This document shows positions 8,008-22,907 of a stretch of DNA of 64,000 nt, piece after piece. The position numbers and the translations under genes were made by a program. The stretch's first letter is position 1, and each line of letters starts with the position of its first letter. Source of the DNA: Oceaniferula flava (GTDB lineage: Bacteria; Verrucomicrobiota; Verrucomicrobiia; Verrucomicrobiales; Akkermansiaceae); assembly GCF_016811075.1 (NCBI RefSeq), contig NZ_JAFBGL010000008.1:1-64000 (forward strand), written 5' to 3'. The notes below the pieces were generated by a model. That model saw only the letters and a program-made list of their open reading frames with translations. It did no database searches and was not told the origin of the DNA.

Positions 8008-8039
8008 CCCCGGCCAGTTTGATGTGGTCGGGGTTTTTT
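8008..8039 (+). terminator. Rho-independent terminator after the sugar kinase
   Basis: An 8-bp stem, CCCCGGCC paired with GGTCGGGG (one G-U pair), has a 10-nt loop and is followed by six T residues. It ends the dehydrogenase/kinase operon. Confidence 0.85.
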
Positions 8040-8099
8040 GTTGGTGTTTATGACACAGAGCGCTTGATGTCAGATTCGATTCCATTCAACATGGTTCCC

Positions 8100-11000
8100 A
8101 TGATTCGAGTATTATGCATGCTGATGTTTGTTAGTCTGACTTCGCAGTGGCTATTGGCTGCGGATGATGGTGTTTCCCATCAGGTGCCAGATGTCATCAA
8201 GAAACAGGTTTTGCCCCAGCTGACCAGTTTGGAAGAGGTCCTGAAGAAAGCCAAAAAACACCGCAGCGGCGATGAGTCCGGAGTGATTTTATTGAGAGAG
8301 AAATACTACTGGGTGACGGAGGAGGGGCGACGCTTCCGCATCTATCACAACATCTATCAGGTGAAGACCGAGCAGGGGGTCGAATCGCTGTCACGTGACA
8401 ATTTCGGTTACGATGAGAAGTTGATCAAGGTGCACCTCGCCAAGGCGCGCACTGTGCTTCCGAATGGCGAGAGTAAACCGCTCGCTGACAATGCGGCATT
8501 CATTCAGCGAGGTCGTGGGTCACACTCGGATCAATTGTATAACAGCAATCGAGAACTCGTTCTCATCTATCCGGATGTCAAAGTGGGCTCCATCACCGAG
8601 TGCGTGGTGATCTACGAGGACATTCAGCCGAGAATTCCACAGGAGATGTTAGGGTCCTTCAGCCTTGCCAGTGGCTGGCCGATTGTGATGAGTCGACTGG
8701 TCGTCGATCTCCCCGAGAAGATGGCGGAGCGTCTGAAAACCAAACACATCGCCACCCAGGTCCGGCCCGAGCGCCAAGCTGGCCGATCGGCTGGACGGAG
8801 TCAGATTGTCTGGCAGCAAAACCATAGTGAGGGTGAACATTACGAGCCAAACCGTGCTCCATCGGATCAGGCTGGACCGGCTATTCAGTTCTGCACGTTG
8901 GAAAGCTGGGAGACCTTCGGCCAATGGTATCGGAAGCTGGTCCAACCTCAGCAACTGCTCTCGAAAAAGCTCCAGGGGCTGGCGGATGAGTGGACCAAAG
9001 ACGCGAAGTCTCGCGACGAAGTGATCCGCATTCTTTTCCAGCGGGTCGCCAACGACGTGCGTTACACCGGCTTGGAGTTTGGGATTTCCGGCCTAAAACC
9101 TTACTCCTGCGACGAGGTTTGGGATGCGCAGTATGGCGACTGCAAAGATAAATCGAATTTGCTCTGCGCTCTGCTCACCTACAAAGGTATTCCCGCCTAC
9201 ATCACCCTGGTCAATACCGAGCACCGAGGCGTGGTTCACCGTGAGGTGCCTGGCTACCATGCTTTTAATCACGCGATTGCAGCCATTGCTCCGGAGAAAG
9301 CCGACGGCCGGTGGATGTTCTGCGATCCCACCATCAATTACGGCAAGCCTGGGCAGCTCTCGCCATCGTCGTCGAACCGCGATGTGCTCATCGTTTCTCC
9401 CAAGAAGGTGCATTGGCAAAAGACGCCGGAGAGCACGGGCGGTCAGCTGCACTACGCCTTTGACCTGACGCTGAATGCCCAGGGAACCTTGTCGGGCTGG
9501 ATGACTCTCAGTGCCAATGGTTTTTACGGAATTAGCGTGGGGGAATCCTATCAATCACTCGAACGCCAGAGTGTGCTACAGAAACTCAACGACCTGATCG
9601 AGCCTTACTACGCCGGTGCCGTGGTGGCCGACTACGTGCTTCCTGTTAGTCAGGGGAAACAGTTCCCAGACCCGGTCGTTGTAAAAGCTTATTTCACCTG
9701 CCCGGTCTCCCAGCCGAATGAGCAGGGACGACTACCTCTCCGTTTCCCCTCGTCCTCAAACCTCTTTTTGGACTACGGGGATCATGCCGCTCGGAATACC
9801 GATTTCTTCCAATGGCGGGATACCATTCGTGTTAGCGCATCGATCCAACTGCCATCAGGGTGGGTGATCGATTCAAAACCGCAGCCACTGGATATCGACA
9901 CCCCTTACTACGCCATCAGCGCATCGTGGAATGGTAGGAAGCAAGATGTGAAGGCTCGCCAAGAAGCACCGGTGATGACGATGCGAATGGATGTCGATTG
10001 CCTAAGCGACCTGATCCCGGCTAATCAAATCGGTGTCGTTCAGCAGGCGAACCGGGCACTTGCTGCCTGGCTGCAAAAACCCGCTTTGCTCACCAAGAAT
10101 GCGCAGCTTGCTGAAACCCAAACGCACACGGCCAATGAGGATGTGGAGCTGTCGTTGATGCCGACAGGGAAGGGGCAGATGGATTTGGTGAACCGACTCT
10201 ATCCAAGCACAGGTTCCCTCGCCCTGCGAGAATTGGCATTGAAGAAAGCCCTGCAATTTTTCCCGAACGATCGCAACCTTGCCTTCGTGGTGGCATCAAG
10301 CTTGGCGCATATGAAATACAGCGTGGCCGATTACCAGAGTGCCAACAAGATGTATGCCGAGCTGTTGGCGCGACCGACCCAGGGAGTCGAACCAGCGGAG
10401 GTGCACTACGCGCGCTACATCCATGCCATGTCGCTGTATGAAGTGGATGAAAAAGAAAAGGCGATTGAGCTACTCACGCAGCTGGCCAAAGAAAGCGACC
10501 TCTCCAACTACCGCGAAGGGTGGACGCTGGCATTGTTAGGCGATTACTTGGCCACTAACACGGAGGGCCATGCGGAGCGTGCCGAGTTGGCGATTCAGCA
10601 GTATGAGAAAGCGCTCGAGGTGAAGAGCAACCACACGGCTTACACCGTGGCCAGCCTCTACATGCAGCGCAGCCATGCCGGCCAGGGCGCACGGGCTGCC
10701 GGAGAGTTCATAGAATGGATTTCCTCTGATCCTAAACTGAGTCAGGAGATCCTCGATGAACTGGATGCCAAATTGAACGATTCCAATTTCAACACGCACT
10801 TGGAACCCTCCCTCAAGGTGCTGGCTCAGGTCATCCCTGAAGTAAAGCAAGATGCCAAACTTAAGGATGCACTCAGTGAGATGCTCAAAGGTCACCAATC
10901 GAAGATGATTTCGAAAAAGGCAAACGTTGCAATCCGCACGAAGCTGCTGGCATTGATCGATCAAACCCGTCCCAGCTATCTTCGTGATGCAAGCGCTCCG

Positions 11001-14000
11001 CAAGGGGCGGATAGTCGTGAGAAGGTCGAGGCAGCCATGCAGGAGTATTATAACGAAAAGCATGCCCAATGGCTAACCACCGCTGCGTATTACTTCCGAA
11101 CTTACCCAGCCGATGATTCCTTCACCAAACACCTCTGGGATTTTTACACCTACGTGAAATGGCAGGAGTATACCTCGCAGTCAGGTGAGAAACCGGTTCT
11201 GTTTGAGCCCCTAACAAAACTGGTTAAGACCATCCCCACCAGCGATCCCTACTACTGGGAATGCCTGTATGTGACCGCTTCATGGCACGAAGAACATGAC
11301 CGATGGGAGGAGGTTCTCAAAATTTTCGAAGCCATCCCAACGCACCCGGATTACGATGAAGATTTCCGAATCACCTGCTGGGCGCGGATGGGCGCGGCCT
11401 ACGAACGATTGGGGCGTTGGGAGGATGCCATTCGGGCTCACACCCAGCTCGCCGACGAAAGAGACTCCTACGAGTCGGTCTGCGAGCAGTTGTTACGCGC
11501 CGGGATGCTACAGTTGCGCATTGGCAAGCCGGACGCAGCCTTAGCCACTTGGAGACTGTTAGCCAGCGTGCCCAAATCGACTTGGGACGAATCCGTCGAC
11601 GTCGATGATATCAAGACTGTGGTTCAACTCATGGCTGACGAGGCAAAGACCAAGCAGTTCTGGAGTCAGACAGATCGTTGGTGGAACGAGGAACTACTGC
11701 CACTGATGCAGACTGTGGGGGCTACCATCCCTGATAAGCCACTGCTGTATAACGCCATCAATGCCGAAGCCGTTCAGAATGCGGTGAGTGAGTCGACTTC
11801 CACTAAAAAACTAGCTGACCTGTTAGCCGCAAATTACCCAGTTCTTGAATCGGCGAGGTGGTTACCCTCGCGTCTGAGTGACGTCCAATTGACCCTTTAC
11901 AATCCATCACTCAAACTGAAAGTCGCTGATTTCAGAAAAAACAGCGCCCTTCTGATCGGATATTACAAAGCCGTTCAATCGGGTTGCCCACCGGAACTGC
12001 TGCCAACCGCCCGCCTGATGGAGGTCGCCATACTGATTGATGCAGGCCACAACGAGGAGTCTGCCGCCGAGGCGTTGAAAAATTTGCAGCAGCTGGAGAA
12101 GTTAGACAATCCTGACCGCGAGCAACTCGAACGAACCACCCTCATTTACATGCTTGCTATCCAGCGTGCCGAAGGTGACCTCAAGGATGCCATCGCCCGT
12201 GCAGAACAACTGCAGGAGTCGCCACTGCTGTTTATTGAGAAAAACATGTTTGCACGCCACTACTGCCAGTTGCTGAACCAAAGTGGACAAACTGAAAAAT
12301 GTCTCGAGGTGGTGCAGCAATCCATCGCTGGGAATGCGACCAAGGATTCGAACTACCACGCGCTGGTGGCGTTGGAAAAACAGCTGCGTGGCGAGCGCTT
12401 CTCGCGTGAAGGGTTCGGTCGACACCTGACAAGCTGGGTGAAAGCAAACCAACCGGCCTGGTTTGCCGAAGTGGACATCAAGTCCCTTGACGATGATCGA
12501 CTCCCAGGCATTTCCGAGCTTATCGACGGTGACCGTGGAGAGCTCAGTGAGGTGCAATTTCTCAAAGCTTTGCTGCTGGTGGCGCAATCGCCGGAGCTGG
12601 AAATTGGCACCCGACAGGAAGCGTTTCTTTTCTACATTGCGGAGATGGTGAAATATCAAACGACTTGGGACGACGCTGTGAAATTGGTGACGGGTGCGAT
12701 CAAGATGGAGCCTGGGTTTGAGAACATAAACCGCCGCTTGATCTGGACCCAATACGTCGATCACTGCTATGAGGGTCGACTGAAGCAGGCGAACCAACTT
12801 CGCCGACACCCGGCGTATGAACTGGTACAGCAATCGGTGCGAGAGACCACTGGCGTGCAAGTTCACAAGTTGTGTCAAGTCATTGCCAAGAACGACGCAC
12901 AAGCGATCCTCTGGCACATCGAGGACGCTACGGCCGAGCCAATGGATAAGGTGAAAAGCGGGAATGTCTACACCCTCATCGAACAGCTGATCAGCTATGG
13001 CGCGCTTGAGCAGGCGGAAGAAGTTGCCAGCGGTATCAAAAACTGGAAACTCGAAGCCGAGCAGTCTAAAACAAAACTCGCATTGCGCCTCGAGTTAAAA
13101 CAAACGCTGCGTACAGCCAAGCGTCAGCACGACGTGGTGAAGCAACTTTACGCAGCGAACCGTGAACGGATTGAGAACTTGGCAAAAAGTGCTCCCGACG
13201 GCTGGAATCAATATGTTAGAATTCAAAACAACCAGGCGTTCTCTCCAAAGCAACTCAGTGCCGTGGATGCCTCACGCTGGATGAAAACCGGCTGGATCGA
13301 TCAAACGGATCTCTCGTTTTGGATGACCCACACGGGCTTCTGGCTCTACGATGAAGAGATCGAGGGGTTGGATGCGAAGGCCTTTGCCAATGCGATGGAA
13401 ACCATTCTCAAGTCGGACCTTCGGGAAGATGCCAAGATTGGATTGCTGGCCGGCCTGCTGATGCTCAATATGCACGATGGGCCAGCCATGAAGGCTGGTT
13501 CTGAAATCCTGAACCGTGAGGACCTTCCGACGCTTGATCCTAAGGCCCAGGCAGCACTTCAATTGTTTGTTGAACAATCGCAGCGTTACTCAGGGGGTGA
13601 CCCGGTGACATCGCTGGATATGTTGAAATTGAAAACCGATGACACAGTGACCGGTTTCCTCACGACCGCTACCGCGCTGATGCTGGCAATTTCAGAAGGG
13701 AAGAAGCCCAATATCGAGCGGGTGCTCGAAGATGCTGATTCTAATTTATTGTTAGATGATCACTTGATCCATGCCTACCTGCAGGCGTTGATCGCTATCG
13801 GGGATGATGACTTGGTCGATCTGGTGAAGGAACAGGCCTTGGATAATTTTCAGGACGATCTCAGCGAACTCTGGTTAAAACCGAATGTCTCGAGCTTTGC
13901 CTCAGCCGTGGATGTGACTACCTTGTTAGGGTGTGAGTCATTGATTTCTGAGCGTTTAATCCAGCATATCCGCGACAATGTTCATGAGGACCGTCACGCC

Positions 14001-14249
14001 AAGTTGGACTTGCTCGCCGCGTTGTTACGCAAAGATTGGAAGAAGGTGCTGGAAGCTGGCGATGTCATGCTGGAGGAAGACGAGGATCGCAGCCACCTGT
14101 TGAACTACGCCATGGGAATGGCTCATCAACACTCTGGGAATGTGGCGAAGGCCCGCGAGTTCTTCACGCCCTTGTCGAAGAAGAACCCGATCGAGCACAC
14201 CTATATTCTGGAAGCTCGCAAACACCTCAAGCAGATGGAGGGCAAGTAA
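8100..14249 (+). CDS. Giant secreted DUF3857/transglutaminase/TPR protein
   Basis: About 2,049 residues from the ATG at 8100, which begins a signal peptide (MIRVLCMLMFVSLTSQWLLA). In-frame ATGs at 8067 and 8091 are alternatives; the region before 8040 is a terminator. The N-terminal third matches the DUF3857 plus transglutaminase-core architecture. The apparent triad is Cys347 (YGDCKDK), His391 (FNHAIA) and Asp409 (CDPTINYG). The rest is a long helical solenoid of TPR-like repeats with no further enzymatic motif. The protein is exported; cell-wall or envelope protein remodelling is a guess. It is more than twice the usual length for DUF3857 transglutaminase proteins. Confidence 0.75.
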   Translation: MIRVLCMLMFVSLTSQWLLAADDGVSHQVPDVIKKQVLPQLTSLEEVLKKAKKHRSGDESGVILLREKYYWVTEEGRRFRIYHNIYQVKTEQGVESLSRDNFGYDEKLIKVHLAKARTVLPNGESKPLADNAAFIQRGRGSHSDQLYNSNRELVLIYPDVKVGSITECVVIYEDIQPRIPQEMLGSFSLASGWPIVMSRLVVDLPEKMAERLKTKHIATQVRPERQAGRSAGRSQIVWQQNHSEGEHYEPNRAPSDQAGPAIQFCTLESWETFGQWYRKLVQPQQLLSKKLQGLADEWTKDAKSRDEVIRILFQRVANDVRYTGLEFGISGLKPYSCDEVWDAQYGDCKDKSNLLCALLTYKGIPAYITLVNTEHRGVVHREVPGYHAFNHAIAAIAPEKADGRWMFCDPTINYGKPGQLSPSSSNRDVLIVSPKKVHWQKTPESTGGQLHYAFDLTLNAQGTLSGWMTLSANGFYGISVGESYQSLERQSVLQKLNDLIEPYYAGAVVADYVLPVSQGKQFPDPVVVKAYFTCPVSQPNEQGRLPLRFPSSSNLFLDYGDHAARNTDFFQWRDTIRVSASIQLPSGWVIDSKPQPLDIDTPYYAISASWNGRKQDVKARQEAPVMTMRMDVDCLSDLIPANQIGVVQQANRALAAWLQKPALLTKNAQLAETQTHTANEDVELSLMPTGKGQMDLVNRLYPSTGSLALRELALKKALQFFPNDRNLAFVVASSLAHMKYSVADYQSANKMYAELLARPTQGVEPAEVHYARYIHAMSLYEVDEKEKAIELLTQLAKESDLSNYREGWTLALLGDYLATNTEGHAERAELAIQQYEKALEVKSNHTAYTVASLYMQRSHAGQGARAAGEFIEWISSDPKLSQEILDELDAKLNDSNFNTHLEPSLKVLAQVIPEVKQDAKLKDALSEMLKGHQSKMISKKANVAIRTKLLALIDQTRPSYLRDASAPQGADSREKVEAAMQEYYNEKHAQWLTTAAYYFRTYPADDSFTKHLWDFYTYVKWQEYTSQSGEKPVLFEPLTKLVKTIPTSDPYYWECLYVTASWHEEHDRWEEVLKIFEAIPTHPDYDEDFRITCWARMGAAYERLGRWEDAIRAHTQLADERDSYESVCEQLLRAGMLQLRIGKPDAALATWRLLASVPKSTWDESVDVDDIKTVVQLMADEAKTKQFWSQTDRWWNEELLPLMQTVGATIPDKPLLYNAINAEAVQNAVSESTSTKKLADLLAANYPVLESARWLPSRLSDVQLTLYNPSLKLKVADFRKNSALLIGYYKAVQSGCPPELLPTARLMEVAILIDAGHNEESAAEALKNLQQLEKLDNPDREQLERTTLIYMLAIQRAEGDLKDAIARAEQLQESPLLFIEKNMFARHYCQLLNQSGQTEKCLEVVQQSIAGNATKDSNYHALVALEKQLRGERFSREGFGRHLTSWVKANQPAWFAEVDIKSLDDDRLPGISELIDGDRGELSEVQFLKALLLVAQSPELEIGTRQEAFLFYIAEMVKYQTTWDDAVKLVTGAIKMEPGFENINRRLIWTQYVDHCYEGRLKQANQLRRHPAYELVQQSVRETTGVQVHKLCQVIAKNDAQAILWHIEDATAEPMDKVKSGNVYTLIEQLISYGALEQAEEVASGIKNWKLEAEQSKTKLALRLELKQTLRTAKRQHDVVKQLYAANRERIENLAKSAPDGWNQYVRIQNNQAFSPKQLSAVDASRWMKTGWIDQTDLSFWMTHTGFWLYDEEIEGLDAKAFANAMETILKSDLREDAKIGLLAGLLMLNMHDGPAMKAGSEILNREDLPTLDPKAQAALQLFVEQSQRYSGGDPVTSLDMLKLKTDDTVTGFLTTATALMLAISEGKKPNIERVLEDADSNLLLDDHLIHAYLQALIAIGDDDLVDLVKEQALDNFQDDLSELWLKPNVSSFASAVDVTTLLGCESLISERLIQHIRDNVHEDRHAKLDLLAALLRKDWKKVLEAGDVMLEEDEDRSHLLNYAMGMAHQHSGNVAKAREFFTPLSKKNPIEHTYILEARKHLKQMEGK

Positions 14250-14309
14250 TTCCAAGTTCGCCTAGGTTTATTGATTGGCATTTCAGCGTCTCCGAGCGAG
14301 GGTGTCCAG

Positions 14310-14936
14310 GTGAAACGTATCGTAGAACCTGAGATTCTCGACGAGCTGCCTGCCGATGATCCGGCGGCGGTTCGGAGTCGGAGAGACTTGCGTATGATCA
14401 ATGCCCTCATGGGTGGTCCTCGGTGGATTGTTCGGCAGCTCGAGGGGCTGGGGGACATCGAGCGCATCGTCGAACTCGGCGCCGGTGAGGGTGAACTGAG
14501 CCAGCAGCTGAAGCGATCATTCCCTGACAGCGAAGTGGTCGCCGTTGATCTCATTGGCAAACCGGATGCCGTGTCTGCCGAGGTGCTCTGGCATCAGGGG
14601 AATGTGCTGGATTACCATGGTTTTGACGAATACACGGTAGTAGTTGCCAATTTGTTTATCCATCACTTGAAGGCGGATGCTTTAAAATTGTTAGGCAACC
14701 GTCTCGCCGACGCTCGAGCGGTGATCTTGGCCGAGCCCCACCGGGTGTCTTCGTCGCTAATCTTGGGACGCACTATTTTTCCTCTGATCAACCACGTCAC
14801 GCGGCACGATATGATGACCAGCATCCGCGCAGGTTTTGTGCCGGGAGAAATCCCTGAATTGTTCGGTGGTGGCTTTCAATGGAGTGAAAGTTTCAGTCGC
14901 TTGGGAGGCATCCGCACGATGGGAGTGAAGCCATGA
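14310..14936 (+). CDS. SAM-dependent methyltransferase of a type III PKS operon
   Basis: A 208-residue class I methyltransferase with the SAM-binding motif VELGAGEGE. The GTG at 14310 is chosen because it follows GCGAGGG and gives MKRIVEPEILDELPADDPAA, which resembles the N-termini of methyltransferases found beside type III polyketide synthases. An upstream TTG at 14271 is less likely. It ends in an ATGA overlap with the flavoprotein gene. In this kind of cluster it probably O- or C-methylates the polyketide product. Confidence 0.8.
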   Translation: MKRIVEPEILDELPADDPAAVRSRRDLRMINALMGGPRWIVRQLEGLGDIERIVELGAGEGELSQQLKRSFPDSEVVAVDLIGKPDAVSAEVLWHQGNVLDYHGFDEYTVVVANLFIHHLKADALKLLGNRLADARAVILAEPHRVSSSLILGRTIFPLINHVTRHDMMTSIRAGFVPGEIPELFGGGFQWSESFSRLGGIRTMGVKP

Positions 14937-15946
14937 AGGAAATCGAAATCATCGGCGGTGGACTGGCAGGTCTGTCATTGGCGATCTACCTTCGTAAGCT
15001 CGGCGTGGATGTGACGGTTTTTGAGTCGGGGAGTTATCCCAAGCACAAGGTCTGCGGCGAATTTATCTGCGGCGTGGATGAGGCTGTGCTGCAAGATTTG
15101 GGGATTCAAGAGGTCATTGACCAGTCGCAGCATCACACGACGATGAAGTGGTGGATGGGCGACTCGCTTGTGCTCGCTGACCGACTTCCCACCGTAGCCT
15201 GGGGACTGTCGCGATACCGCTTGGACGAGGATCTGGCGCACTTATTGGTCGACCGTGGAGGGCGCTTGCAATGTGGTCAACGGGTGCAGACTGAAGACGC
15301 AGAGTCCAGAGTGTGGGCGACTGGTAAACGCAAAAAATCAGGTCGATGGATCGGGCTGAAAATCCATGTCACCGATGCTCAAATTGAGGGGCTGGAAATG
15401 CACGTTGGCGAGCGTGGCTACATCGGTCTGTGTGGCATCGAAGAAGGCAAGGTGAACTGCTGCGGCCTCTTCCGGGTGGACAAATCACTCAGGGGAAGTG
15501 GCTCGGAATTGATTGCGGCTTACCTGCAAGCGAACGGCTTGTTAGGTCTGGCTGCACGCTGCAGAAACTGGCAAAAAGACGAGGCGTCGTTTTCCGCCAC
15601 GGCAGGGTTTTCTTTTGGCAAGCAGGAACAGGTTGGGGGACTTTGCGTTGGCGATGCCTCTTATCTTATTCCTCCATTTACTGGAAATGGCATGAGCATG
15701 GCGTTGGAATCGTCATGGCTCGCCGGGCCATGGTTGGCTCGATACGCGGCGGGGGAACTAACATGGTCGGCCGCCTGTGAAGGCTACGATCACGAATGTG
15801 TTGCCTTTTTCCGAAAACGGATGAGTCTGTCGGGTAACATGCAGCCACTGTTGTTTCACCGACTGGGCAGGATGTTGCTGAAGACCGCGGCGAAAACTGG
15901 CACCCTGCCGTTTCAATCTCTCTTTCACCACCTCAGAACTCCATGA
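14933..15946 (+). CDS. FAD-dependent oxidoreductase/monooxygenase of the PKS operon
   Basis: A 337-residue flavoprotein of the PHBH/geranylgeranyl-reductase group. The N-terminal Rossmann motif is IIGGGLAGLSLAIYL. A C-terminal FAD-binding segment reads GDASYLIPPFTGNGMSMAL. Its start overlaps the methyltransferase stop by 4 nt, and its stop overlaps the polyketide synthase start in the same way. The tight coupling implies a shared pathway in which it oxidises or reduces the type III PKS product. Confidence 0.8.
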   Translation: MKEIEIIGGGLAGLSLAIYLRKLGVDVTVFESGSYPKHKVCGEFICGVDEAVLQDLGIQEVIDQSQHHTTMKWWMGDSLVLADRLPTVAWGLSRYRLDEDLAHLLVDRGGRLQCGQRVQTEDAESRVWATGKRKKSGRWIGLKIHVTDAQIEGLEMHVGERGYIGLCGIEEGKVNCCGLFRVDKSLRGSGSELIAAYLQANGLLGLAARCRNWQKDEASFSATAGFSFGKQEQVGGLCVGDASYLIPPFTGNGMSMALESSWLAGPWLARYAAGELTWSAACEGYDHECVAFFRKRMSLSGNMQPLLFHRLGRMLLKTAAKTGTLPFQSLFHHLRTP

Positions 15947-16965
15947 ATTTACTCGGCATCGCCTCCGCATTTCCTACGGCATCATTTACTCAACCACAAT
16001 GTCTGGCCGCGATGCAGGAGGCGGATTTTTGGCTAGATCTCGATCGGCGTTCACAGGTTTTGTTAGGCAAGGTTCTGGGAGGCGACAGCGGGATCAACAA
16101 ACGTCACTTCGCACTCGATCAACTGACCGACGCCTGGCGACGCGATGCCCAGGCCTTGAACGAAGCGTATGAACGACAGGCACCGAAGCTGGCTGCGGAA
16201 GCCGTGAAAAAGGCACTGGCAAAAAGCGGCCACCGTCCTGAGGAAATCGATGCCTTGCTCGTTTGTTCCTGCACCGGCTATCTCTGCCCAGGCGTGAGCA
16301 GTTACACCGGCGAGCAATTGGGGCTGCGTGAGGATGCGGTCTTGCAGGATATGACAGGGCTCGGTTGCGGTGCAGCGGTGCCCATGCTGAGGGTGGCGAA
16401 CTCGATGGTTGCTGAGCGGCCGGACGCGGTGGTGGTGACGGTGGCGGTGGAAATTTGCTCGGCGGCCTTCTACGTGGAAGACGATTTTGGTGTGCTTATC
16501 AGCACCTGTTTGTTTGGCGATGGGGCGGCGGCTGCTGTGTGGTCGGGCGCTGGAGGAACGTGGCAGGTGGGCGACTTTGAATCGCTGCATCGACCGCAGC
16601 ACCGGGAGAAAATCAGGTTCACCAATGCGGGAGGTAAACTTCGCAACCAACTCGACAAAAGCGTGCCACTCCACGCCGCAGAGACGGTGGAAAAACTCTA
16701 TGCCAAGCGGCGCGGCGAGCCTCAAGCCTGGGTGACCCACGGTGGTGGCCGAGATGTGATTGAACAACTGGAAACCGTGCTGCCTTGCGATGAACTCAGC
16801 CTCGCTAGAGCGGTGATGCGAGATTATGGCAATCTCAGCAGTCCGTCCGTGTTGGTGGCTTTGGAACGCTTTCTCGAGCAAAGCGATGGCTCGGAAGACC
16901 GACTATGGATGTGTGCCTTTGGTGCTGGGTTTTCAGCGCACAGCTGCGAGATTGTTAGAAGTTGA
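15943..16965 (+). CDS. Type III polyketide synthase (chalcone synthase family)
   Basis: A 340-residue thiolase-fold enzyme with the complete type III PKS triad: Cys142 (GLGCGAAVP), His266 (WVTHGGGRDV) and Asn297 (YGNLSSPSV). These enzymes extend an acyl-CoA starter with malonyl-CoA to give pyrones, resorcinols or chalcone-type products. It closes the three-gene coupled operon with the methyltransferase and flavoprotein. The starter unit and product cannot be read from sequence. No transporter or regulator is in the operon. Confidence 0.88.
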   Translation: MNLLGIASAFPTASFTQPQCLAAMQEADFWLDLDRRSQVLLGKVLGGDSGINKRHFALDQLTDAWRRDAQALNEAYERQAPKLAAEAVKKALAKSGHRPEEIDALLVCSCTGYLCPGVSSYTGEQLGLREDAVLQDMTGLGCGAAVPMLRVANSMVAERPDAVVVTVAVEICSAAFYVEDDFGVLISTCLFGDGAAAAVWSGAGGTWQVGDFESLHRPQHREKIRFTNAGGKLRNQLDKSVPLHAAETVEKLYAKRRGEPQAWVTHGGGRDVIEQLETVLPCDELSLARAVMRDYGNLSSPSVLVALERFLEQSDGSEDRLWMCAFGAGFSAHSCEIVRS

Positions 16966-17540: not shown

Positions 17541-18257
17541 ATGAATTTTATGATTTTATCCAAATTTCAATACGGAATCGCAATTGCCGCCTGTTCGATC
17601 CCGCTGATGGTATCGGCTCAGGTGAACGAGCTTACGAAACAGGAACAACAAGAGGGATGGCAGCTGTTGTTCGATGGCAAGACCTTCGAGGGCTGGCGCA
17701 ATTACCAAGGCAAGGGGGTGCGTGACGGCTGGCAAGTGGTCGATGGCACCATGCACCACACCAAGGGCGGCAAGGACCTGATGACCGAGAAACAATACGA
17801 AGATTTCGAATTCAAGCTGGAGTGGAAAATTTCCGAGGGAGGCAACAGTGGGATCTTCCTTGGGGTTCGCGAGATTAAGGATAGAATTTCCCGTTCAGGC
17901 ATCGAGATGCAGATTATCGATAACGAACGCCACCCGGATGCCAAGAACGAGAAAAACGTCTCAGGCGCCTGCTACGCGCTCTACAAACCACCGGTGGGAG
18001 CCGACCGCAAAGCCGGTGAGTGGAACCAAGTGTACATCATCAAAAAAGGATCACACTATCAGTTTTTCCAAAATGGCGTGAAGACTGCGGACTTTGATCT
18101 GGAGGACACCGAGTTCATTGATCGCATTGCCGCAGCCAAATTCAAAGATTGGCCACACTTTGCCCGCTACCGCAAGGGACACATCGGGCTACAAGACCAC
18201 GGCGATGTGGTTTCCTTCCGCAATATCAAATTGAAGAACCTCAGCGCGAAAGATTAG
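17541..18257 (+). CDS. Secreted DUF1080 protein (3-keto-disaccharide hydrolase-like)
   Basis: A 238-residue exported protein with a signal peptide ending near PLMVSA and a single DUF1080 (concanavalin-like) domain. Typical family segments are WQLLFDGKTFEGWRNY near the start, GGNSGIFLGVRE in the middle and GHIGLQDHGDVVSFRNIKL at the end. The family is greatly expanded in Verrucomicrobiota and Planctomycetota. Some members act on 3-keto-glycosides; the substrate here is unknown. It shares a bidirectional terminator with glutamine synthetase. Confidence 0.85.
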   Translation: MNFMILSKFQYGIAIAACSIPLMVSAQVNELTKQEQQEGWQLLFDGKTFEGWRNYQGKGVRDGWQVVDGTMHHTKGGKDLMTEKQYEDFEFKLEWKISEGGNSGIFLGVREIKDRISRSGIEMQIIDNERHPDAKNEKNVSGACYALYKPPVGADRKAGEWNQVYIIKKGSHYQFFQNGVKTADFDLEDTEFIDRIAAAKFKDWPHFARYRKGHIGLQDHGDVVSFRNIKLKNLSAKD

Positions 18258-18310
18258 CGGCGATCAGGGGGCTTTAAAAAAAACTAAGCCTCGGCCCAAT
18301 TAGGGAACAT

Positions 18311-18348
18311 AAAAAAACGGCTGCGAGGAAATCCCCGCAGCCGTTTTT
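18311..18348. terminator. Bidirectional terminator between DUF1080 gene and glutamine synthetase
   Basis: A-rich flank, then ACGGCTGCG paired with CGCAGCCGT, then a T tract. The 9-bp stem is extended by A-T pairs. Both strands end in a U-run, so it can serve both convergent genes. Confidence 0.9.
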
Positions 18349-18382
18349 GAAAGAGTGAGTGATGGTATCACTCGCGAGCTCC

Positions 18383-19396
18383 TTACTGCTCGACGCTTGC
18401 GATCGTTTGAAGGATGCGGCCAGCAATTTTGTATGGGCAGCCCTGTGAGTTAGGTCGGCGATCTTCAAGGTAACCCTTGTAAGCATCGTCCTTAACAAAG
18501 CTGTGTGGCACACGAATGGAAGCACCACGGTCAGCAACACCCCAGGAGAACATGTCGATGCTCTGAGTTTCGTGCAGGCCGGTGAGGCGCTTGTCGTTGT
18601 CAGGACCGTAAACAGCGATGTGCTCTTCACAGTTCTCTTCGAAGGCGTCCATGAGTTTGAGGAAGTATTCCTTACCGCCGGTCTCACGCATGTATTCGGT
18701 GGAGAAGTTAGCGTGCATACCGGAACCGTTCCAGTCACCATTCAGAGGCTTACAGTGCCACTCGATGTCGACCTCATACTCTTCAGTGAGGCGGAGAAGG
18801 AGGAAGCGAGCCATCCAGATTTCGTCAGCAGCTTTTTTGGAGCCTTTACCGAAGACCTGGAATTCCCACTGACCTTTGGCCACTTCAGCGTTGATGCCTT
18901 CGTGGTTGATTCCAGCGTAGAGGCAGAGTTCGAGGTGGATGTCAGCGATTTCGCGAGCGATGCCACCGACGTTCTTGAAGCCAACACCACAGTAGTATTC
19001 ACCCTGTGGGTTCGGGTAGCCGCCTTTCGGGAAGCCGAGAGGCACGCCGTCTTTCATCATGAAGTATTCCTGCTCAAAGCCAAACCATGTGCCTGGATCG
19101 TCGATGATGGAAGCACGGTAGTTGGTGGGGTGAGGAGTGCCGTCTGGCAGCATGACCTCACACATGACAAGCACGCCATTTTCGCGAGTGCCGTCAGGAT
19201 AGACTGCCACTGGCTTGAGAACACAATCTGAGTCTCCGCCGTCGGCTTGTTGGGTGGAAGATCCGTCGAAGCCCCACTCAGGAAGCTGCTCAAGTGTTGG
19301 GAATTCGTCGAATTCCTTCATCATGCACTTGGTGCGGAGGTTCTGAACTGGGGAGTAGCCGTCAAGCCACACGTAGTCTAGTCTATATTTAGCCAT
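18383..19396 (-). CDS. glnII: Glutamine synthetase, type II (eukaryote-like)
   Basis: A 337-residue GSII enzyme from the ATG at 19396 (MAKYRLDYVWLDGYSP). Length and motifs fit GSII rather than the roughly 470-residue GSI: WGFDGSSTQQADG, the ATP/metal segment GFEQEYFMM, NGDWNGSGMHANFSTEYMR and the SFVKDDAYKGYLEDRRP region. It makes glutamine from glutamate, ammonia and ATP. A near-consensus sigma-54 promoter lies 76-93 bp upstream, which points to nitrogen control. The longer frame reaching 19477 runs through that promoter and is rejected. Confidence 0.93.
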   Translation of the reverse strand: MAKYRLDYVWLDGYSPVQNLRTKCMMKEFDEFPTLEQLPEWGFDGSSTQQADGGDSDCVLKPVAVYPDGTRENGVLVMCEVMLPDGTPHPTNYRASIIDDPGTWFGFEQEYFMMKDGVPLGFPKGGYPNPQGEYYCGVGFKNVGGIAREIADIHLELCLYAGINHEGINAEVAKGQWEFQVFGKGSKKAADEIWMARFLLLRLTEEYEVDIEWHCKPLNGDWNGSGMHANFSTEYMRETGGKEYFLKLMDAFEENCEEHIAVYGPDNDKRLTGLHETQSIDMFSWGVADRGASIRVPHSFVKDDAYKGYLEDRRPNSQGCPYKIAGRILQTIASVEQ

Positions 19397-19471
19397 AATT
19401 TTATGTTGTTGGGTAATGGTTAGTGTCTGGGATGCCGCATTTGAATGCCGCGACGGGCATGAAAGAAAAGG

Positions 19472-19489
19472 AAGCAATCAACGTGCCAA
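19472..19489 (-). promoter_or_regulatory. Sigma-54 (-24/-12) promoter of glutamine synthetase II
   Basis: Read on the minus strand the site is TTGGCACGTTGATTGCTT. It has the -24 element TGGCAC, a 5-bp spacer and the -12 element TTGCT, matching the RpoN consensus at every key base. It points at the glutamine synthetase start, leaving a leader of roughly 65 nt. No enhancer-binding regulator is encoded in the window. Confidence 0.85.
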
Positions 19490-19508
19490 TTTTTGATTTA
19501 ATCGAGAA

Positions 19509-20387
19509 TTAGTCGGTTGATTTGCCCTCGTGAACCTCGATGGTGATGAGAGTGGTATCGTCTCTGCCATCGTTGCTAATGGCACGATTCATCAGAGATG
19601 AGGCCAGCTCACTTGTCGAGCCCTGGTTCTTCGAAAATGCCGAGTGGATGTTCTTTTCCCACAGTCCGTCGATGACTCCGTCGCTACAGATGAGAAAGCG
19701 GTCGCCTGGCTGGTAGGAAAGGGCGCCAATTGTTGGTTTGGTCTGGTTTTTTCCTGCGCCCATCACCTGATAGAGCACGGATTTGCGAGGGTGTTCACGG
19801 AACTGGCGTTCGCTGATTTCACCACGTTCCAATTTTTTCCAGGCGTAGGTGTGATCGACGGTTATCATCTTCGTTTCACCGTTGCGATGGAGGTAGATGC
19901 GGGAGTCGCCGACGTTGGCAAAGTAGAGATTCTCCGGGGTGAACCAAGCGAGAGCCAAGGTGGCGGCCATCCCCTGGTGGGCCTCGTTGGCGGCCGCCTG
20001 AATGTTGATCGCTTCGTGCACTGCACAGATCGCCTTTTCCAGATGACTGGTGTAGTCTGGGTGAAGTCCTGCTGCCGCGGTTTTGAACGTGCCGGGAATG
20101 ACCAGAGTGAGCTCGTCGAGGATCAAGCGCGATGCCACATCACCGGCATTGCCGCCGCCCATTCCGTCGGAAACTCCGAAAATTAAATCATGTGCCGCCA
20201 GCGAGTGGCTGCCTTGGTCGTCAAGCCGTGCCGCGCCATTGATATCCGAGGCAAAGGCGAGCCAAGAATCATCGTTGACCGGTTTCCGTGACCCCGATTG
20301 GGACAGCGCCGACCACTCAATGTCCGACGGCGCAGCGTCTGGCTCGAGCTTCGGAGCGCCGGGGAGGAAAGGATTGATATCGGGCAT
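19509..20387 (-). CDS. PP2C-family serine/threonine protein phosphatase
   Basis: A 292-residue PPM/PP2C phosphatase with the metal-binding motifs in order: VNDDSWL, GVSDGMGGGNAGDVAS, GMAATLALAW, NVGDSRIYL, LICSDGVIDGL and NDGRDDTTLITI. It should dephosphorylate Ser/Thr residues in the cytoplasm; there is no signal peptide. The gene follows a 131-residue kinase-like gene by 17 bp on the same strand, so the two probably form an antagonistic pair. Its own downstream neighbour is glutamine synthetase, which has a separate promoter. Confidence 0.88.
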   Translation of the reverse strand: MPDINPFLPGAPKLEPDAAPSDIEWSALSQSGSRKPVNDDSWLAFASDINGAARLDDQGSHSLAAHDLIFGVSDGMGGGNAGDVASRLILDELTLVIPGTFKTAAAGLHPDYTSHLEKAICAVHEAINIQAAANEAHQGMAATLALAWFTPENLYFANVGDSRIYLHRNGETKMITVDHTYAWKKLERGEISERQFREHPRKSVLYQVMGAGKNQTKPTIGALSYQPGDRFLICSDGVIDGLWEKNIHSAFSKNQGSTSELASSLMNRAISNDGRDDTTLITIEVHEGKSTD

Positions 20388-20404
20388 TGGGGAACTGAGA
20401 AAAA

Positions 20405-20800
20405 TTACTGCTCCTTGGAGGGCATGTCGAGAAGTGTTGCGAGTTCAAAATCGATAATGCAGAACTGCCCGGTTTTTTCATCGTAGGTGATGTTGCGGGA
20501 GAACGGGTCGTCGTGACGGACGCCATATTTATCCTCGAGGTTTTGGAAAAGTTTGTCGCACTTTTTCTTGGAAATGTCAGGCGCTGGGGAGCCGCAGTTG
20601 GAGGTGACCAGGTGCAGTTCCTCCTCGTTGGCCTCAATAAACTTGGGCACATTGGTGCAGCCTCGTTCTTCGAGGGCTTTGAGGATTTTGACCTCGTTGG
20701 CGAAGCGTTCTTCCTTGTCGGTGCCACGGAAATATTTGTGCACATTGCCGTAGTAATCGATCTTCACCATGGATCGGATGCCGTCTTTGAGATTGCGCAT
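20405..20800 (-). CDS. Miniature protein kinase-like protein
   Basis: A 131-residue protein with the core marks of a kinase fold and little else. A short N-lobe contains a candidate Lys in VHKYFRG and a candidate helix-C Glu in RFANEVKIL. A hinge strand LHLVTSN is followed by a catalytic-loop-like HDDPFSRN (H96, D98, N103) and a metal-binding IIDFE (D117). The chain ends about 14 residues later, so there is no activation segment or C-lobe helices. An AAAAGG lies just before the ATG. With the PP2C gene 17 bp downstream it may phosphorylate a partner, or act as a pseudokinase. The fold call is inference from motifs. Confidence 0.55.
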   Translation of the reverse strand: MRNLKDGIRSMVKIDYYGNVHKYFRGTDKEERFANEVKILKALEERGCTNVPKFIEANEEELHLVTSNCGSPAPDISKKKCDKLFQNLEDKYGVRHDDPFSRNITYDEKTGQFCIIDFELATLLDMPSKEQ

Positions 20801-20862
20801 GGCCTTTTGTAACCACGAATCGGAAAAATCGCACGAAGGAATTTGGCCTTCCCATCGAGGCC

Positions 20863-21252
20863 TTATAAAAACAACGTGTTAGCAGCCTTGAAGCCTAACC
20901 AAACTGCGGCCAAGGACCCCAGAACCGAGGCAGCGAGGTTGACGATTGCTAACAGTGGCGTCTCGCCAAAAAGTTTGTGGGTATCCAGTGCGAAAGTGGA
21001 AAAGGTGGTGAAGGACCCGAGGAAACCGGCCACTGCAAAGGGGTGGAGGCGTGCCCAGGATTCCTGATGCCGCACTGCCATGAAACCAATGATCAGTCCG
21101 ATGACAAAGGACCCTAACAAATTGCATGCGAGAATACCGACGGGGAACTTGTGCAGACGGGTATTTGCCGCGAGCTGCTGAACTCCACTTGCGACGGCGT
21201 AGCGCGATGCCGCGCCGAGACCACCACCAAGAAAGATGTAGAGCCAGTGCAT
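20863..21252 (-). CDS. crcB: CrcB/FluC fluoride ion channel
   Basis: A 129-residue, four-helix membrane protein with the family motifs GGGLGAASRY, NLLGSFVIG and GFLGSFTTFSTF. FluC forms a dual-topology dimer that exports fluoride. The gene is 15 bp downstream of trpF in a leftward run. No fluoride riboswitch was recognised in the short gap, so it is probably expressed with trpF. Confidence 0.93.
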   Translation of the reverse strand: MHWLYIFLGGGLGAASRYAVASGVQQLAANTRLHKFPVGILACNLLGSFVIGLIIGFMAVRHQESWARLHPFAVAGFLGSFTTFSTFALDTHKLFGETPLLAIVNLAASVLGSLAAVWLGFKAANTLFL

Positions 21253-21267
21253 AATATGGGTGAGTGG

Positions 21268-21918
21268 TTAGCGTTGTGTGGCGGCCAGGAGGGCTTGCAC
21301 TTTGTCGAGGTCCTTGATGCCGGGTGAGAGTTCGGCTCCAGAGGCGATATCGAGCGCGCAAGGGTGCACTTGATCGATCGCATCCGCCGCGTTCACCGGA
21401 GTAATCCCACCGGCCAGTAGCACAGGAATTTCGGGGTGCTGCGCGATGAAGGCTTGGGCGTGTGTCCAATCAAAGGTTTCACCAGTGCCTCCGTAAACGC
21501 CAGGGGCAGGGGTATCTAACAAAATGGCCGTGGCATTGTAGTCGTATATATTGGCCAGCGAGTCTTTGTTTTTCACACCGATGGCTTTGATGAAAGGGAG
21601 GTTCTCGCTTGCAAAAGCAGCGCAGTAATCTGCCGATTCATCACCGTGGAACTGGGCGACATCAATTTGATTAGCAGCTAACAGACTGCGAGGAAGTTCC
21701 GGATCTGCGTTAACGAAAACACCGACACGGAGGATCTTCCCTGCGGCGTGTTGCAGCAGGGGGCTGGCGGAATCCGGGGCGAGGTAACGCTTAGAATGCG
21801 GCCAGAAATTGACACCCAAGGCGTCGACGCCGAGATCGATCAGTGCACTCACATCCTCCATGCGGGTGACTCCGCAGATCTTGAGAGATGTTGTGGTCGG
21901 ATCGAAGAAGGCATTCAT
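21268..21918 (-). CDS. trpF: Phosphoribosylanthranilate isomerase
   Basis: A 216-residue TIM barrel that catalyses the Amadori rearrangement of N-(5-phosphoribosyl)anthranilate in tryptophan synthesis. Diagnostic segments are SLKICGVTRMEDV with the catalytic Cys, LGVNFWPHSKRY, VAQFHGDES, LLDTPAPGVYGGTGETFDW and LLAGGIT. The C-terminal phosphate-binding DIASGAEL follows. No other trp genes are in the window. Confidence 0.95.
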   Translation of the reverse strand: MNAFFDPTTTSLKICGVTRMEDVSALIDLGVDALGVNFWPHSKRYLAPDSASPLLQHAAGKILRVGVFVNADPELPRSLLAANQIDVAQFHGDESADYCAAFASENLPFIKAIGVKNKDSLANIYDYNATAILLDTPAPGVYGGTGETFDWTHAQAFIAQHPEIPVLLAGGITPVNAADAIDQVHPCALDIASGAELSPGIKDLDKVQALLAATQR

Positions 21919-21983
21919 GGGGGACTCGGAAAGAAGTGTTTTTTAACTGGCAGTAGGCGATAGGAAAGCGGGACTCGGTCTCG

Positions 21984-22862
21984 TTACTCGACGTTCTGCA
22001 CTTGTTCGCGGACTTTCTCCAGCTCGGTCTTCGCATTGACGATCAGCTGGGCCAGGGTGGCGTCGTGGGCTTTGGAGCCAATCGTGTTGAACTCGCGATT
22101 GAGCTCTTGGCAGAGGAAATCGAGTGGTCGTCCCACTGGTTCATCCTTGCCCAAATATTCGCGGAACTTGGTGAAGTGCGAGTGCAGGCGGGTGATCTCT
22201 TCGCTGATGTCACAGCGTTCGGCAAAGAGGCCTATTTCTTTCAGCAGCCGCTCGTCGTTCAAGTCGATCTCGAGACCGGCTTCACTGAGTCTGCGATGCA
22301 GCTGCTCGCGATAATGGGTCACCACCGCCGGGGCGTGGCTGCTGATCTGTTCGGCAATGTGTTCCAGACTGCTGAGCCGAGCTTCTGTATCGTCGTGCAG
22401 ATGCTGACCTTCGCTGGCACGCATGGCAATCATGCTATCGAGGGCATCGTTGACCGCTGGGATGACGGCTTCACGAGCTTCCTCCACCGAGGCGGACTCT
22501 TGATCGAAATGTAAAATTTCCGGTGTCCTCAGGAAATCCGCCGAGGTCGCTTGGATCGGGCGGTCAATAGCATCGGAGAGTTCGGTGAACGCCGCTTCCA
22601 GGGCGCGCGCGCGCTTGGTGTTGATCCGGATCTGATCGCTGGCTGTATCTGATTGTTCAATCTGGATGGCGATGTTGACCCGGCCACGTGATAACTTCCC
22701 AAGGGCCATCTTACGAATTTCCGCTTCGAGTTCGGCGTAGGCGCGAGGCAGCTGCACCACGATTTCGCCTTGCTTGCGGTTGACCGAAGAGGCCTCCACG
22801 CGGGCTGCTAGAGTGCTTGTGGCGTGCTCGGCACGACCGAAACCTGTCATCGAGTGCATCAT
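21984..22862 (-). CDS. yicC: YicC-family endoribonuclease
   Basis: A 292-residue YicC protein. The N-terminus MMHSMTGFGRA aligns with the family start, which decides for the ATG at 22862. A C-terminal region DEPVGRPLDFLCQELNREFNTIGSKA is the most conserved part of the family. YicC proteins are endoribonucleases involved in RNA turnover. It sits between trpF and tatC on the same strand. Confidence 0.93.
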   Translation of the reverse strand: MMHSMTGFGRAEHATSTLAARVEASSVNRKQGEIVVQLPRAYAELEAEIRKMALGKLSRGRVNIAIQIEQSDTASDQIRINTKRARALEAAFTELSDAIDRPIQATSADFLRTPEILHFDQESASVEEAREAVIPAVNDALDSMIAMRASEGQHLHDDTEARLSSLEHIAEQISSHAPAVVTHYREQLHRRLSEAGLEIDLNDERLLKEIGLFAERCDISEEITRLHSHFTKFREYLGKDEPVGRPLDFLCQELNREFNTIGSKAHDATLAQLIVNAKTELEKVREQVQNVE

Positions 22863-22907
22863 GTCTGGGTAGGTAGTTGGGGGAAGGGATGAGGGTCGTC
22901 GTGTTTC

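Follow-up and report, generated by a model that had tools for sequence, protein, structure and literature searches.

Introduction

GlnE exerts reversible covalent control of glutamine synthetase (GS) by nucleotidyl transfer on the type I enzyme (GSI). The protein-kinase-like superfamily is defined by a β3 Lys, an αC Glu, an HxD...N loop and a DFG-type Asp; the catalytic Asp of the loop (Asp98 in the protein described below) is required for phosphate transfer and is dispensable for nucleotide binding. Bud32/PRPK and the Rio kinases are part of KEOPS or of ribosome assembly.

Minimal kinases are already known, as passages of PMC13395416 (OspG and SteC) and of PMC10575702 (HopBF1) describe. According to the former, SteC constructs ending at residue 375 or 377, 11–13 residues after Asp364 of the DGD motif, are inactive, αF binds the substrate and OspG requires a binding partner for activity. 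Archaeal ArkI, an RNA kinase, carries a patch of positive charge as well as motifs for tRNA in its C-lobe, and its activity depends on a C-lobe motif (passages of PMC9095486). In cyanobacteria the nitrogen regulator PII is dephosphorylated by PphA, which is a PP2C (part of PMC4285133), and the kinase SpkI, encoded beside pphA, is dispensable for PII phosphorylation, which loss of SpkB lowers (part of PMC11863333).

Here, we describe a locus from Oceaniferula flava in which a miniature kinase-fold protein (KIN), a PP2C-type phosphatase and a type II glutamine synthetase (GSII) are encoded together. The window analysed comprises 64,000 nucleotides (positions 1 to 64,000 of contig NZ_JAFBGL010000008.1, assembly GCF_016811075.1). 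Literature searches, which covered open-licence papers, found no paper on a KIN–PP2C–GSII module.

Results

Organization of the locus

On the minus strand, the genes run in one direction in the order KIN, a 17 bp gap, PP2C, a 112 bp gap, GSII and a terminator-like hairpin (Table 1). An earlier note on this DNA had described a 131-residue protein with an H-x-D...N loop and IIDFE that ends right afterwards, 17 bp before a complete PP2C gene; the translation and the coordinates bear out both statements, and the third conserved partner, GSII, lies outside the interval 19509–20800 to which that note referred.

Table 1. Features of the KIN–PP2C–GSII locus, in window coordinates
Feature	Position	Strand	Basis
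KIN, miniature kinase-fold protein, 131 aa, ATG start	20405..20800	(-)	ORF, Pfam APH match, AlphaFold2 model, recurrence as a family
K22 codon, β3 lysine (VAIK equivalent), invariant in 136/136	20735..20737	(-)	Alignment; strand 20–24 in model
E36 codon, αC glutamate, invariant in 136/136	20693..20695	(-)	Alignment; helix 29–45 in model
Catalytic loop H96-x-D98-xxx-R102-N103; H, D, R and N invariant in 135/135 readable	20492..20515	(-)	Alignment
D117-F118-E119 (DFG equivalent); D and E invariant in 135/135 readable	20444..20452	(-)	Alignment
PP2C-type Ser/Thr phosphatase, 292 aa, ATG start, metal-site motifs intact	19509..20387	(-)	PP2C_2 profile, conserved Asp
Type II (eukaryote-type) glutamine synthetase (GSII), 337 aa	18383..19396	(-)	Yeast GS 3fky is best PDB match, E 6.6e-93
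Intrinsic-terminator-like hairpin after GSII, 16 pairs, T tail	18313..18348	(-)	Terminator scan

The terminator scan of 18200–22900 returned one hairpin against a mean of 5.0 in shuffled sequences and is not significant overall; the position of the hairpin fits. CrcB and TrpF lie upstream of KIN, in a gene order that is conserved at full length in near relatives only, and the nearest named relatives are Akkermansiaceae and Verrucomicrobiales metagenome assemblies. The window's GSII is the one Gln-synt_C match in its genome, which also encodes PII (GlnB) and has 16 Pkinase matches, 14 of them above the cut-off. No GlnE was found in this genome by a search that, run identically, detected GlnE in three of 14 control genomes.

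Two other parts of the window may be mentioned. Positions 14271–16965 carry a row of genes that we take to be methyltransferase-, FAD oxidoreductase- and type III polyketide synthase-like, and 8019–14249 hold a 2076-aa frame in which, by its appearance, long repeats presumably follow a transglutaminase-type domain. Elsewhere in the genome, at G000:C6:269315-270718, an apparent single frame of 606 aa matches both PP2C_2 and Pkinase; it would be a separate phosphatase–kinase fusion, the kinase part of which is longer.

Predicted fold and family assignment of KIN

The AlphaFold2 model of KIN, built from an 18-row alignment of the window protein and related loci, has a pLDDT of 92.2 and a pTM of 0.85. 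Its strands span residues 2–6, 10–14, 20–24, 54–58, 63–66, 104–107, 112–115 and 121–123 and its helices residues 29–45 and 78–92, with the catalytic loop following the latter. The predicted structure is a kinase N-lobe with αE, the catalytic loop, β7–β8 and DFE, and with no separate αD. The activation segment with APE, αF–αI and all that lies beyond DFE are missing. KIN had been called a kinase without a C-lobe; this is right for everything after DFE and slightly overstated in other respects, because αE, the catalytic loop, β7–β8 and DFE are present.

The kinase-like nature first proposed from motifs is supported by the structure prediction, which gives a kinase fold with Z of 12–13 to PRPK, Rio2 and Ark1 (VIA Z 12.8–12.3, 115–126 residues aligned), tied with the ordinary kinases ACVR1 and PLK4. 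The best Foldseek matches are Ark1, CK2, Bud32 and Rio2, with Ark1 at the top (E 6e-7, TMq 0.69–0.70). Judged by residues and predicted fold, KIN belongs to the protein-kinase-like superfamily, with a β3 Lys, an αC Glu, an HxD...N loop and a DFG-type Asp all present.

By sequence profile, KIN scores 15.9 bits against Pfam Pkinase (PF00069), for which the cut-off is 31.7, and the Bud32 profile matches weakly (E 7e-4), far under its cut-off. The best family match is APH (PF01636), at 27.3 bits against a cut-off of 23.2 and at E <= 0.01 in all 27 of the 27 members compared; it covers KIN residues 68–123 only and 58 of the 239 profile positions (142–199), where KIN ends, so that the full-length APH domain with its C-terminal substrate-binding part is absent. 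A profile search of the PDB found CDC7 and CK2, mainly across the catalytic loop (best E 6e-4). A close relative by sequence among solved kinases was rejected, the single-sequence PDB search having given weak, unrelated matches (best E 0.48), as was assignment to a defence system, for which the PADLOC matches were weak and partial (7.6e-4 and 3.6e-5).

Distribution, length and conserved residues of the KIN family

KIN is present in 86 of 98 related genomes; in a sample of 384 genomes from the class, the profile (E <= 0.001) finds it in 195. The latter count was 196 before a weak match in G664 (E 3.6e-4) was left out, and G664 was likewise excluded before the co-occurrence table was drawn up. 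In the phylum sample 82 of 387 genomes have a match, 78 of them inside the class; the profile searches covered the phylum and class samples, and the sets of 98, 387 and 384 genomes overlap. Wide occurrence outside the class was rejected: the four phylum matches beyond it are weak and lie in longer frames, and the two that were read look, by their translations, like a fusion with a methyltransferase and a kinase of full length. One frame outside the class but within the phylum, of 456 aa (L145, 4632–5999), has an N-terminal part that is methyltransferase-like by translation, followed by a KIN-like domain with HRDMNRKN and IDFE and only about 40 residues after DFE. A contig scan with patterns from the window protein confirmed 18 loci, all in records labelled as Verrucomicrobia type. 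KIN is missing from each of the 20 genus g3 genomes among those listed. Plasmid-borne spread was rejected, since 72,556 plasmid records gave zero matches.

The locus counts that follow refer to 135 loci, from which L145 and L146 are excluded as not being family members; several loci come from close relatives, so that the counts are not independent.

KIN, which is roughly half as large as an ordinary kinase, carries the motifs H96-D-D98-P-F-S-R-N103 and I-I-D117-F-E119, and its stop lies 12 residues past E119. In the 97 unfused KIN genes, the distance between the first residue matched by the profile and the stop is 127–171 aa (median 139), and the DFE Asp is followed by a median of 22 residues. 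The early end thus characterizes the family and does not reflect a truncation peculiar to this genome; a truncated gene or pseudogene was rejected because the same short form occurs repeatedly in the class.

The alignment of 136 sequences comprises the window and the 135 loci, one of which (L051) is frameshifted and unreadable at the 3' motifs. Among the printed positions K5, V20, K22, G26, E36, P52 and G70 are invariant in all 136, and H96, D98, R102, N103, T105, Y106, I116, D117 and E119 in the 135 readable sequences. The His, Asp and Asn on which the kinase reading had first been based are thus retained in every homologue with readable motifs (135/135). The glycine-rich loop of Pkinase lacks conservation: of the 136 sequences, 82 have T and 50 have G at residue 7, no conserved glycine-rich stretch lies between strands 1 and 2 of the model, and its place is taken mostly by K-[DN]-[GT]-x-R, in which the Lys is invariant and the Arg is present in 130 of 136. 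The median pI of KIN is 6.2, which is acidic to neutral.

The PP2C partner and its fusion with KIN

The PP2C of the window scores 54.6 bits with the PP2C_2 profile (cut-off 24) and 160.8 bits with the Stp1/IreP equivalog NF033484, below the cut-off of 230. D40, D74-G75, G160-D161, D236-G237 and D276 are invariant in 124–125 sequences, and by its profile match and metal-binding Asp residues the protein belongs to the PP2C/PPM phosphatases.

The pairing with a PP2C first seen in the window recurs in the homologues: PP2C adjoins KIN in 124 of the 135 loci and in 37 of them shares a single in-frame reading frame with it, the PP2C match then starting a median of 21 residues past the DFE Asp. A tree of 122 sequences, from which L051, L203, L036 and the 11 KIN loci without PP2C are left out and which holds no exact duplicates among its rows, requires four or more changes between the fused and the separate state. 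The model of one fused protein (L045; 22 rows, pLDDT 83.4, pTM 0.76) has a low-confidence linker between the domains; the solved folds that resemble its PP2C part most closely include tPphA.

In the remaining 11 of 135 loci KIN has no neighbouring PP2C and its motif is intact. In eight of these 11 genomes (G402, G031, G049, G019, G057, G041, G023 and G044) a PP2C divergently adjoins GSII; this is not so in the other three (G035, G052 and G085). KIN follows a magnesium transporter gene, presumably MgtE-like, in seven of the nine loci without PP2C that were read, and this gene forms a cluster of ten loci in the ORF census. The arrangement, with KIN directly after the transporter gene and no adjoining PP2C, was observed in genera g7 and g11 (L147, L151, L153, L154, L156, L187 and L189), where the two genes sometimes overlap by four bases.

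Linkage and co-occurrence with GSII

GSII adjoins KIN–PP2C in 98 of the 135 loci. It lies upstream in divergent orientation in 71 of them; in the others it shares the strand of the pair, downstream in 26 and upstream in one, which makes three arrangements. Of the 37 loci in which it is not adjacent, four are cut by contig ends and 11 are the loci without PP2C. In an ORF census from -5 to +6 kb around 118 loci, GSII was found in 97, a separate PP2C in 77 and the next family in 19; the other large clusters overlap the KIN, PP2C or GSII positions and were set aside as shadow frames. When listed positions were compared in 58 further genomes of the class, KIN and GSII lay within 2.5 kb of each other in 39 and did not in 19. 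One genome (G027) carries the module twice, with a separate GSII for each KIN–PP2C fusion; these two GSIIs share 71% and 50% identity with that of the window.

Among the 384 class genomes, 194 carry both KIN and GSII, one KIN only (G527), nine GSII only and 180 neither (Fisher p 1.6e-97, relatedness ignored). Within the GSII-only group a PP2C search gave a single, distant match (5e-7, in G476) and nothing in the other eight genomes; since none of the nine carries a PP2C orthologue, KIN and PP2C are absent together. The KIN-only genome carries a PP2C orthologue. In seven of the nine the GSII score is weak (E 4e-130 or weaker), and in G585 and G683 it is below 1e-160. Weaker GSII scores also occur in some KIN genomes (G153, G426 and G697, 6e-132 to 7e-146), G153 and G426 being cut by contig ends.

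Of the 81 relatives that are at least 90% complete, 72 have both genes, none KIN only, three GSII only and six neither. In the three, GSII is divergent, a term used here by score and identity alone, and 56–60% identical to that of the window, and there is no KIN; the six fall into three lineages within the order (genus g3, G065 and G095). G038, one of the 72, has a divergent GSII as its sole GSII, and this adjoins the KIN–PP2C pair. A divergent GSII, 50–57% identical to that of the window, was also observed beside the module in three loci. In L183 and L188 it immediately follows the first GSII, whereas L168, the second KIN locus of G027, has no other GSII.

Comparison with three paralogues and yeast GSII gave no Ser, Thr or Tyr by which the linked GSIIs are clearly set apart. 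T233 and Y244 are unlike the three paralogues yet present in yeast GSII, and Y14, found in 95 of 98, is absent in yeast and present in one of the three paralogues; the three paralogues are themselves linked.

Discussion

A putative phosphorylation switch for GSII

The linkage, fusion and joint absence of the genes suggest that KIN and PP2C may act as writer and eraser in a reversible phosphorylation switch that serves GSII specifically; of the readings considered this is the likeliest, with odds that we find about even. Cyanobacterial PphA, acting on PII (part of PMC4285133), is a precedent, and the single GS and the lack of a GlnE match in the genome agree with this reading. KIN would then be a phosphotransferase cut down to the nucleotide-binding lobe, αE, the catalytic loop and DFE, which would bind Mg-ATP in its cleft and transfer phosphate, most likely onto GSII itself, from which PP2C would remove it. 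KIN has neither the activation segment nor αF–αI, which normally hold the protein substrate, and we therefore infer that its active cleft may be completed by a partner: PP2C, where tethered to it, or the GSII oligomer on which it would act. ATP binding, catalysis, the substrate, the direction of control and this completion are all deductions from genes and models.

The invariance of the KIN residues favours catalysis, as a non-catalytic scaffold would usually lose some of them; in particular, the conservation of Asp98, kept even where KIN is encoded apart from PP2C, favours it. The main difficulty for KIN as a phosphotransferase is the missing substrate platform: KIN ends 14 residues after D117, like the inactive SteC constructs, which weighs against activity. 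As SteC is inactive at a similar cut and OspG depends on a partner, KIN would be expected either to be active only in a complex or to be an ATP-binding regulator of PP2C.

Under the second of these readings, KIN would be a non-transferring ATP/ADP-binding regulatory domain of PP2C that senses the energy or nitrogen state and gates the dephosphorylation of GSII, or of a nitrogen regulator, phosphorylated by an ordinary kinase. The lack of a substrate-binding C-lobe would then be accounted for, the in-frame fusion with PP2C (37 of 135 loci) would be natural, other kinases of the genome, in which 14 of the 16 Pkinase matches exceed the cut-off, could write, and a precedent is at hand in cyanobacterial PphA, which is inhibited by 2-oxoglutarate with Mg-ATP (part of PMC4285133). 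The invariance of the catalytic Asp98 speaks against it, as do the 11 loci in which a KIN gene apart from PP2C still has an intact motif, and we consider it unlikely, albeit a serious contender. The earlier note had offered regulation of the phosphatase by KIN as one of three options, beside an unusual active fold and a pseudokinase; this was sound in so far as the link to PP2C is real, but as the sole role it is too narrow, because GSII belongs to the module and PP2C lies beside GSII in eight of the 11 genomes with KIN apart.

A writer/eraser pair could also act on another nitrogen protein, such as PII (GlnB), the linkage to GSII reflecting shared regulation only. The genome encodes PII, and in cyanobacteria PphA acts on phospho-PII, the kinase for which is, in the portions of PMC4285133 and PMC11863333 that deal with it, not yet identified. 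Among the neighbours conserved in at least ten of 118 loci, however, there is no PII-like family by residues, and the linkage and co-occurrence with GSII are very strong, which makes this reading improbable. It is very improbable that KIN is an APH-type small-molecule phosphotransferase whose product affects GS, with PP2C being separate: PF01636 is the best family match, but only 58 of its 239 positions are matched, KIN lacks the C-terminal part that binds the substrate, and fusion to a protein phosphatase together with joint absence suggests a phosphoprotein cycle. That KIN is an RNA kinase like ArkI, its top Foldseek match, is scarcely credible given a median pI of 6.2 in place of the positively charged patch, the lack of the C-lobe motif that ArkI activity needs (passages of PMC9095486) and a PP2C partner that would be unexpected.

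Should the GSII-directed pair control its proposed target, about half of the class genomes (195 of 384) would carry an unrecognized covalent switch on the central ammonia-assimilation step. If KIN is active, the size limit for kinase-fold enzymes would be lowered, and its fused and separate forms would offer a natural, comparable system for the purpose of the C-lobe. Even if KIN only regulates PP2C, the gene linkage points to a testable target.

Comparison with known systems

Among small kinase folds, Ark1 (PDB 8yv4 and 8yv5) shares about 20% identity with KIN over 115–117 residues, whereas it has 171–173 residues in its structures and KIN has 131, is not basic and ends at DFE; KIN has neither the positive surface nor the tRNA C-lobe motif of ArkI, and no residues past the DFE tail. 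Bud32/PRPK and the Rio kinases likewise resemble KIN (Z 10.4–12.8 over 116–126 residues), but their chains have at least 222 residues with a longer C-lobe and belong to no PP2C/GS module. The depleted C-lobe of KIN is shared with OspG (PDB 4q5h; 122 residues align, Z 10.4, rmsd 5.1) and SteC; the OspG chain, however, has 169 residues and the minimal active SteC spans 210–429, and both act on host cells, whereas KIN is encoded on the chromosome, is widely conserved and has a PP2C as its partner. PphA and tPphA provide the likeness of a PP2C in nitrogen signalling, although SpkI and SpkB are of the ordinary or ABC1 type and not miniature like KIN. Adenylylation by GlnE differs in acting on GSI, whereas the GS of the window is type II.

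In conclusion, KIN may possibly be the smallest kinase-fold enzyme described, with a platform supplied by a partner, and may form with PP2C a bifunctional GSII switch, fused in some genera, that is neither GlnE adenylylation nor PII-based; we put this combined claim forward tentatively, as more doubtful than probable. PP2C in nitrogen control and minimal kinases are already known, and what is apparently new is the unusually small writer and its unexpected target.
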